Positions 3,576-46,336 of a stretch of 64,000 bases of DNA are shown in pieces. The notes beneath the pieces are model-generated. The model did not search any database, had not been told where the DNA came from, and saw only the letters and a list, made by a program, of their open reading frames with translations. Source of the DNA: Sulfurimonas sp. (GTDB lineage: Bacteria > Campylobacterota > Campylobacteria > Campylobacterales > Sulfurimonadaceae); assembly GCF_028714655.1 (NCBI RefSeq), contig NZ_JAQTLY010000002.1, positions 62,001 through 126,000 on the forward strand. The letters run 5' to 3'. Position 1 is the first letter of the stretch. Every line of letters begins with the position of its first letter. Both the position numbers and the translations under genes were made by a program.

Positions 3576-3610
3576 TTGGTTGTTTCCTTTTTTTATTTAC
3601 TTATGTTACG

Positions 3611-3748
3611 CACAAATAGGAGCAATACCCAAAAGTGAGGGCACGCGAGCCCCTATTTGTGACAGGGACACTTCTGTCCCTTGCAACCCCCTAAAGCTAC
3701 CCGCAAATGCGGGAGAGTAAGAGGTTTTTACGCACTTTCAGTGCGTAA
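3611..3748. repeat. Cluster of four intergenic hairpins
   Basis: Between the phosphotransferase gene and dgkA lie four consecutive perfect hairpins: CACAAATAGG/CCTATTTGTG (3611-3620, 3652-3661) with an inner GGGC/GCCC, GGGACA/TGTCCC (3665-3680), CCCGC-AAAT-GCGGG (3700-3713) and TTACGCAC/GTGCGTAA (3728-3748). The third is preceded by CTAAAGCT, as is the hairpin in the 83-bp repeats at 45922-46336 and in the element at 19673-19722, but its stem sequence is different. No terminator-like T-run was seen. Confidence 0.7.
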
Positions 3749-19631: not shown

Positions 19632-19672
19632 TAGTAACCCTTTTTTTCTTTTAAATTTATTACGCTAAACCA

Positions 19673-19752
19673 TTTAGCTACGCTAGCCGCTATGGCGCTA
19701 AAGCTTGCCGCATAAAGCGGCAGAAGAACTTCTTGCAAAACTGCAAGAAGTT
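19673..19752. repeat. Structured intergenic repeat with three hairpins
   Basis: Between cysE and aspC lies a relative of the 83-bp unit found at 45922-46336. It shows TTTAGC/GCTAAA (19673-19678, 19697-19702) enclosing a GCC-GCTAT-GGC stem, then TGCCGC-ATAAA-GCGGCA (19706-19722). A separate 11-bp hairpin AACTTCTTGCA/TGCAAGAAGTT follows (19727-19752). Compared with the 83-bp units the flanks are conserved but the second stem has changed on both sides, keeping pairing. The last hairpin could help end cysE transcription, though no T-run follows. Confidence 0.7.
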
Positions 19753-42808: not shown

Positions 42809-42929
42809 TAGATCCTGAATCAAGTTCAGGATGACCGAGACTTTGTCATTCCAAGCTTGACTTGGAATCTAGTTCAGGATGACCGAGACTCTGTCATTCC
42901 AAGCTTGACTTGGAATCTAGTTCAGGATT
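42809..42929. repeat. Array of palindromic repeats with 48-bp period
   Basis: TAGATCCTGAATCAAGTTCA (with completion to 42835) is followed by copies of GTCATTCCAAGCTTGACTTG plus GAATCTA. The string AGTTCAGGAT recurs at 42823, 42871 and 42919, so the unit is 48 bp. The sequences belong to the same palindrome types as at 13759 and 39936, read in the opposite order. It fills the space after acnB. Confidence 0.75.
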
Positions 42930-45904: not shown

Positions 45905-45921
45905 TTTTATCCTTTTTATTT

Positions 45922-46336
45922 GATTTTAAACGCTAATCGGAATAAGTCCCGCTTAGCTACGCTCGCCGCTGTGGCACTAAAGCTTGACACGAAAGTGTCA
46001 GAATGATTTTAAACGCTAATCGGAACAAGTCCCGCTTAGCTACGCTCGCCGCTGTGGCACTAAAGCTTGACACGAAAGTGTCAGAATGATTTTAAACGCC
46101 AATCGGAACAAGTCCCGCTTAGCTACGCTTACCGCTATGGCACTAAAGCTTGACACGAAAGTGTCAGAATGATTTTAAACGCTAATCGGAACAAGTCCCG
46201 ATTAGCTACGCTTACCGCTGTGGTACTAAAGCTTGACACGAAAGTGTCAGAACGATTTTAAACGCTAATCGGAACAAGTCCCGCTTAGCTACGCTCGCAG
46301 CACGGGTACTAAAGCTTGACACTTTCGTGTCAGAGC
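45922..46336. repeat. Five tandem 83-bp structured repeats between lolA and secA
   Basis: Units start at 45922, 46005, 46088, 46171 and 46254, exactly 83 bp apart, and begin GATTTTAAACGCTAATCGGA (unit 3 reads CCAATCGG). Each contains a CTTAG ... CTAAAG region and ends with the hairpin TGACAC-GAAA-GTGTCA. In the last unit the loop reads TTTC, the reverse complement of GAAA, and the middle part differs (CGCAGCACGGGTAC). Units 1-4 differ at only a few positions. A diverged single copy lies at 19673-19722. No CRISPR-like unique spacers are present. Confidence 0.9.

Follow-up and report, generated by a model that had tools for sequence, protein, structure and literature searches.

A GTAG-tagged three-hairpin repeat family of Campylobacterota with features of a REP-like mobile element

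Introduction

REPs often flank RAYT genes, and ERIC/IRU-type repeats are structured intergenic repeats of about 100 bp found in enterobacteria. Taken by this general description, the latter resemble the family reported here as structured intergenic insertions of about 100 bp and differ from it in sequence, phylum and fold. REP elements are marked by GTAG together with a palindrome that TnpA-REP/RAYT binds in a strand-specific manner in its folded, single-stranded form (PMC8266576). GTAG-tagged REPs are known in many phyla, including the epsilonproteobacterium Sulfurovum; head-head dimers dominate most known GTAG families, and REPtrons may be lost (PMC3733652).

Here we describe a repeat family recognized in a 64,000-nucleotide stretch of Sulfurimonas sp. 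DNA (contig NZ_JAQTLY010000002.1, positions 62,001 to 126,000; hereafter the window). Like the GTAG REPs described in the texts of PMC8266576 and PMC3733652, the family is short, dispersed, intergenic and palindromic, with GTAG at the foot of a hairpin, G.T pairs, complementary stem changes, and clusters reiterated together with flanking DNA. Those REPs consist of one palindrome of 20-50 nt, whereas the family unit, about 75-80 nt long, has a fixed linker and three hairpins in a set order; its stems vary freely inside one genome, its arrays run in the same direction rather than as inverted pairs (BIME), and its copies lie away from Y1 genes. Because the single palindrome, the repeats at a Y1 gene and the inverted pairs of the described REP families were all lacking among its copies, the family appears to work like a REP but to stand outside those families, set apart by its three-hairpin architecture, its free stem variation within a genome and its same-direction arrays. 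Miniature elements derived from IS200/IS605 likewise carry strand-specific hairpins recognized as single strands (PMC8266576), but for this family no full-length parent with its ends was found.

The searched text of the literature, including PMC3847290, PMC8266576, PMC6006769, PMC2817692 and PMC3733652, does not describe the family, and the main text of PMC3733652, as distinct from its figures and supplements, mentions neither Sulfurimonas nor Sulfurospirillum. In a cmscan search, Rfam 15 matched only a tRNA in the window, and copies from six loci gave nothing at gathering scores or at E up to 5, and a known RNA family was accordingly rejected. An earlier note, made on the window from its letters, had proposed an undescribed structured repeat family. 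This holds for the family, which is absent from Rfam 15 and from the papers searched, but not for its kind, as GTAG-tagged REPs are well described, Sulfurovum included, in the text of PMC3733652.

We believe that the family is probably, at a rough probability of 0.55, a compound GTAG-tagged, REP-like, non-autonomous mobile element. REP-like elements would then be seen to include a larger form, with three hairpins, that occurs across free-living Campylobacterota. Its hundreds of copies, compensatory changes, folding-strand asymmetry and base-resolution presence/absence in close species with finished genomes form an unusually clear natural data set, with which the old question of mobility versus mRNA function in REP-type repeats becomes directly testable. 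The family also supplies a ready Rfam-style model.

Results and Discussion

Architecture of the element

The earlier note had described a single compensated hairpin at 19673-19722, sharing flanks with an 83-bp tandem array elsewhere in the window. The plus strand of this span reads TTTAGCTACGCTAGCCGCTATGGCGCTAAAGCTTGCCGCATAAAGCGGCA and is in the same register as the 83-bp array units; the letters and the register of the shared flanks were confirmed, and the stem arms are altered in pairs as had been noted, with TGCCGC/GCGGCA (19706-19722) against TGACAC/GTGTCA in the array. A 91-bp query around the hairpin returned 42 matches in its own genome at E ≤ 0.001 (best other copy, E 9e-18), ruling out chance similarity, and found matches in 13 of 41 genomes, its own counted. 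The hairpin is thus real and compensated, but it is the opposite strand that folds, and into three hairpins rather than one; likewise the noted span marks one end of an element that in full occupies 19658-19726 of the minus strand. The whole copy scored 62.8 bits (E 1.2e-11) with R1, a covariance model of the minus strand (hereafter the S strand) built from 13 copies at other loci, none of them in the window.

Copies from the same genome, its relatives and at least 120 stretches of named genomes were aligned to derive the architecture. The S strand reads TCT-[P3]-AGCTTYAGT-GCC-nnAGC-GGC-TAGC-GTAG[P1], equivalent to ACG-[P1]-TACGCTA-GCC-gctnn-GGC-ACTRAAGCT-[P3]-AGA on the plus strand, and the unit of about 75-80 nt, with its three hairpins in fixed order, is covered by a model of 78 positions. 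The P1 and P3 stems vary from copy to copy, and the linkers are nearly constant. In the window copy, all on the minus strand, the P3 hairpin (TGCCGC/GCGGCA, 5-nt loop) lies at 19706-19722 and is TGCCAC/GTGGCA in the orthologue L183. The adjoining linker at 19697-19705, AGCTTTAGC in this copy, corresponds to the minus-strand consensus AGCTTYAGT and is nearly invariant in alignment A1. P2 follows as GCC-ATAGC-GGC at 19686-19696, with its GCC/GGC pair types swapped for GGC/GCC in copies from another genus (L082, L084, L085). The GTAG foot (CTAC on the plus strand), seen also in other copies, lies at 19678-19681, its last G being the first base of P1. P1 itself, at 19664-19678, is shortened here to a 6-bp stem and a 3-nt loop; by the model alignment its tip is lost, with 3 bases standing against 13 model positions, and is kept in the orthologues L152 and L183.

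In one subfamily the element is longer. Two extra hairpins, the one AAATGAAGG/CCTTCATTT-like and the next ATTTTAT/ATAAAAT-like, extend it up to TTAAGGA, where the similarity stops. An additional 11-bp hairpin of one subfamily, P4, adjoins P3 at 19727-19752 by sequence and fold. In L053, L059 and L268 additional bases (AAAACT...TTTCTTTAGA) stand between P2 and P3, apparently an inserted extra hairpin.

GTAG was found at the P1 foot in 123 of 157 copies, the others having GAAG (18), GTAA (12) or GAAA (4), and in 61 of 61 copies of a second set, for which the search pattern permitted GTA or GAA plus any first stem base. Covariation was measured on 121 distinct aligned copies (alignment A2), an alignment that leans towards structure because it was fitted to the model with 100 hand-picked sources supplied: 95.9% of 2371 pair cells held standard pairs, 19 of the 20 modelled pairs showed two-sided changes, and the covariation score was 0.647 against 0.192 for shuffled and at most 0.143 for slid controls. 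One P1 position is fixed as G.U in 71 of 118 cells. These counts agree with the earlier proposal of a structure-dependent element; covarying pairs are present, and the flank similarity is not due to chance. The fold is also kept between orthologues. Among 46 pairs of copies in 24 orthologous sets, some of which may be independent insertions, double Watson-Crick changes were counted in 51 P1 and 53 P3 cells and one-sided breaks to a mismatch in 8 P1 and 2 P3 cells, and the whole P3 hairpin sometimes differs between orthologous copies (L045/L068).

The folding strand

To find the P1 stems, G.T and A.C were scored alike, so that the wobble counts do not lean to either strand. From an initial 194 copies, 29 without a strict core, 1 at an edge and 7 identical were dropped to give 157, and another 18 with weak P1 were dropped to give 139. 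On the plus strand, P1 of these 139 copies contained 1023 Watson-Crick cells, 51 A.C and 3 G.T; since A.C on the plus strand is G.T on the minus strand, it is the S strand that folds. A second set started from 91 copies, of which 22 lacked a clear P1 and 8 were identical and were dropped; the 61 further copies that remained, mostly of other genera, gave 41 S-strand G.U against 7. P3 showed no strand bias, with 765 of 780 cells Watson-Crick (98%), 7 A.C and 5 G.T. Where both neighbouring genes lie on the other strand, the S-strand wobble in P1 was kept (distinct arm pairs, 11:2 in one count and 6:1 in the second set), as it was between convergent genes (2:1 and 8:0, respectively). Because the bias persists in antisense and convergent copies, the fold seems independent of the mRNA of its neighbours. 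Single-stranded DNA during transposition fits a fold that is read at a stage independent of neighbouring mRNA.

Distribution and genomic placement

A covariance model built from the copies and a search of this and related genomes, the check that had been proposed with the hairpin, found 53 dispersed copies in the same genome (G000) and matches in 25 of 41 genomes of its neighbourhood. Across the phylum, with up to 15 candidates scored per genome, matches were present in 46 of the 298 genomes, from 10 of the 58 genera. Copy number per genome within one genus ranged from 0 to 53, and G088 and G236, genomes from another family that are complete or almost so, carried 48 and 45 copies. Among the matches listed, the named genomes belong to Sulfurimonas, Sulfuricurvum, Sulfurospirillum, Helicobacteraceae and other Campylobacterota, and nearly all are MAGs. 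As to a possible phage origin, one stretch of the viral collection matches the family; in L207, an IMG/VR contig 36,983 bases long, a copy at 1293-1371 scores 93 bits.

The family is intergenic, apart from 9 of 174 copies that overlap a called ORF of >100 aa by >40 nt. Both neighbours were called for 225 distinct copies: in 116 the two genes lie on the S strand (sense) and in 53 on the other strand (antisense), whereas 31 copies stand between divergent and 25 between convergent genes. The sense bias (116:53, p 1.4e-6) was also seen in the Sulfurimonas sp. genome itself (26:6). The P1 end of sense copies lies just before the Shine-Dalgarno site, with a median distance of 27 nt to the start codon that follows. 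In antisense copies it adjoins the neighbour's stop codon at a median distance of 2, the TGA or TAA often lying within TTTRAACG. In divergent gaps the P1 side is nearer the gene in 22 of 31 cases (p 0.03). Nine of ten tested genes behind copies in G000 match named families with unrelated housekeeping functions; such genes include MoaC, methionine synthase, MetRS, a LolA-like gene, serine hydroxymethyltransferase, a LeuC-like gene and FabI.

Presence, absence and array growth

Copies present in one genome and absent from another were compared between G088 and G236, which share 87 to 97% identity across the long stretches that match at the polymorphic sites. At two operon junctions, rnhA-rnc and a second one, the two genomes differ cleanly by one block, in each case about 90-100 bp long. 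In the allele free of the element the two genes overlap; in the allele with it, the upstream gene ends at a new stop codon, once inside P3, and the downstream AAAGGA and start codon are unchanged. No clean target duplication was seen at these junctions. At rnhA-rnc the element is present in 4 of 24 congeners at three separate positions in the tree, requiring three changes, which losses, gains or recombination could explain equally. Other orthologous comparisons with and without the element numbered 23. Further G088/G236 candidates were less simple: at 549250 G236 retains only P1 and the tail, at 2188854 P2 and the linker are lost in G236, at 1791941 the other genome has unrelated sequence, and 1892492 lies within a multi-copy region.

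The array in the window, an 83-bp tandem repeat at 45921-46322, consists of five elements on the minus strand at 45926-46336, before a LolA-like gene of the minus strand (named from L049). All five units were recognized by R1 (52.9-70.8 bits). P3 is TGACAC-GAAA-GTGTCA in four of them and, with its loop flipped, TGACAC-TTTC-GTGTCA in the fifth. This last unit (46317-46332) combines the TTTC loop with a changed P2, as hairpin template switching would leave. In G088, the unit of a tandem pair (L261, 4842-5050) takes in some 50 bp from the 3' end of the gene upstream, and this array therefore grew by tandem duplication together with its flanks.

A probable mobile element and its possible mobilizer

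We propose that, when single-stranded, for example as lagging-strand template, the S strand would fold as P3, linker, P2, GTAG and P1. An HUH tyrosine transposase of the RAYT type, or a relative since lost, could then recognize the GTAG foot and the P1 hairpin through shape and the conserved loop and linker letters, not through stem sequence, and would move or copy the element. Surviving insertions would be those that leave genes intact, placed either immediately before a Shine-Dalgarno site or right after a stop codon, and arrays would arise later through tandem duplication that includes flanking DNA. The scattering of copies at unrelated places and the covariation in all three helices argue for mobility, as do the range of copy number within one genus, the S-strand wobble of P1, the GTAG foot and the base-level differences in presence and absence. 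More speculatively, the element may be identified by its shape: the stems drift freely, including among the copies of a single genome and among orthologues, the loops, linkers and strand are fixed, and the ends supply a stop codon and an intact or element-borne Shine-Dalgarno site, so that overlapping operon genes could be entered harmlessly. The mobilizer would then be an enzyme reading hairpin geometry, an idea that we hold only tentatively and think rather doubtful.

Y1-domain matches were present in 13 of 19 high-copy genomes, including G088 and G236. Against mobility, and unlike the situation of GTAG REPs in the texts cited above, the other 6 of the 19 (G021, G024, G017, G193, G206 and G040, G193 being a single contig) had no Y1 match. 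No copies were found within about 1.5 kb on each side of 15 Y1 loci, no family member was recognized among the hairpins around six Y1 genes, and Y1 presence did not visibly track copy number when compared by eye across 41 genomes. All 16 listed neighbour pairs within 300 bp in G000, G088 and G236 point in the same direction by eye, with no inverted pairs. RAYT-like Y1 proteins of about 220-266 aa occur in several Campylobacterota genomes (L215, L250-L254) with no element copies nearby. Mobilization by a reverse transcriptase was rejected, RVT_1 matches being found in only 5 of 19 genomes and in none of G000, G088 and G236.

Two observations count against mobility as a sufficient account: the orthologous upkeep of the fold by compensatory changes exceeds what a dead transposon needs, and mobility alone does not predict the sense bias. 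Both speak for the main rival, in which the family is a cis-acting RNA module, a portable S-strand leader or intercistronic structure that stabilizes mRNA, uncouples cistrons or adjusts how the following gene is translated, with spread by duplication, recombination or horizontal transfer being secondary. The position of P1 just before the Shine-Dalgarno site in sense copies and nearer the gene in divergent gaps, the fixed G.U in P1, and the subfamily whose two more hairpins reach TTAAGGA would suit such a module as well. However, 78 of the 225 copies are antisense or convergent and still show the S-strand wobble, and the genes downstream are unrelated housekeeping genes. A translational switch in which the linker pairs with the Shine-Dalgarno site, suggested by a fold, was tried and rejected: the pairing hardly exceeds expectation from composition, with mean z of -0.42 when the sites are shuffled and -1.29 when the linkers are scrambled, and given these weak values and a nearly invariant linker we do not claim it. 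We regard the module as possible but on balance unlikely as the whole explanation; mobility and an RNA role of the S strand may both be true.

The compensated stems could also arise with no selection on the fold, if template switching during replication perfects hairpins by writing both arms together. P3, nearly all Watson-Crick and free of strand bias, would be compatible with this, as would its flipped loop in the last array unit and the replacement of the whole hairpin between L045 and L068. Against it stand the strand bias of P1 wobble, the constancy of the linkers, P2 and the GTAG foot, and preservation across genera, and for the element as a whole we find the explanation improbable. A family of small RNA genes transcribed along the S strand from their own promoters would account for S-strand folding in antisense copies, 23 of 53 of which have minus-10-like hexamers within 80 nt before the element. 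These hexamers take no preferred distance in DNA that is AT-rich, and some 50 such genes packed tightly inside operons would be odd. The lack of a positioned hexamer before the element argues against a promoter of its own, and small RNA genes seem to us very improbable.

Other repeats in the window

Besides the copy at 19658-19726 and the array, the window holds a diverged member on the minus strand at 3606-3718, whose P1 tip is long and whose P2 is of another kind and longer. The earlier note had suggested its hairpin at 3700-3713 as a possible third version. The R1 score is weak (16.4 bits, E 0.079), but blastn matched the region to other loci (best E 2.3e-9), and the surroundings of the hairpin match the P1 tips of ordinary copies in L032 (24/24 nt) and L189 (31/33 nt) as well as L119 (38/40 nt) and L121 (26/26 nt). 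On the basis of these matches we assign it to the family as a diverged subfamily member. A second tandem repeat, with a period of 48, is present at 42817-42928 and contains CAGGATGAC...GTCATTCC; L155 and L202 have a similar sequence between genes, and this may be another dispersed palindromic repeat.
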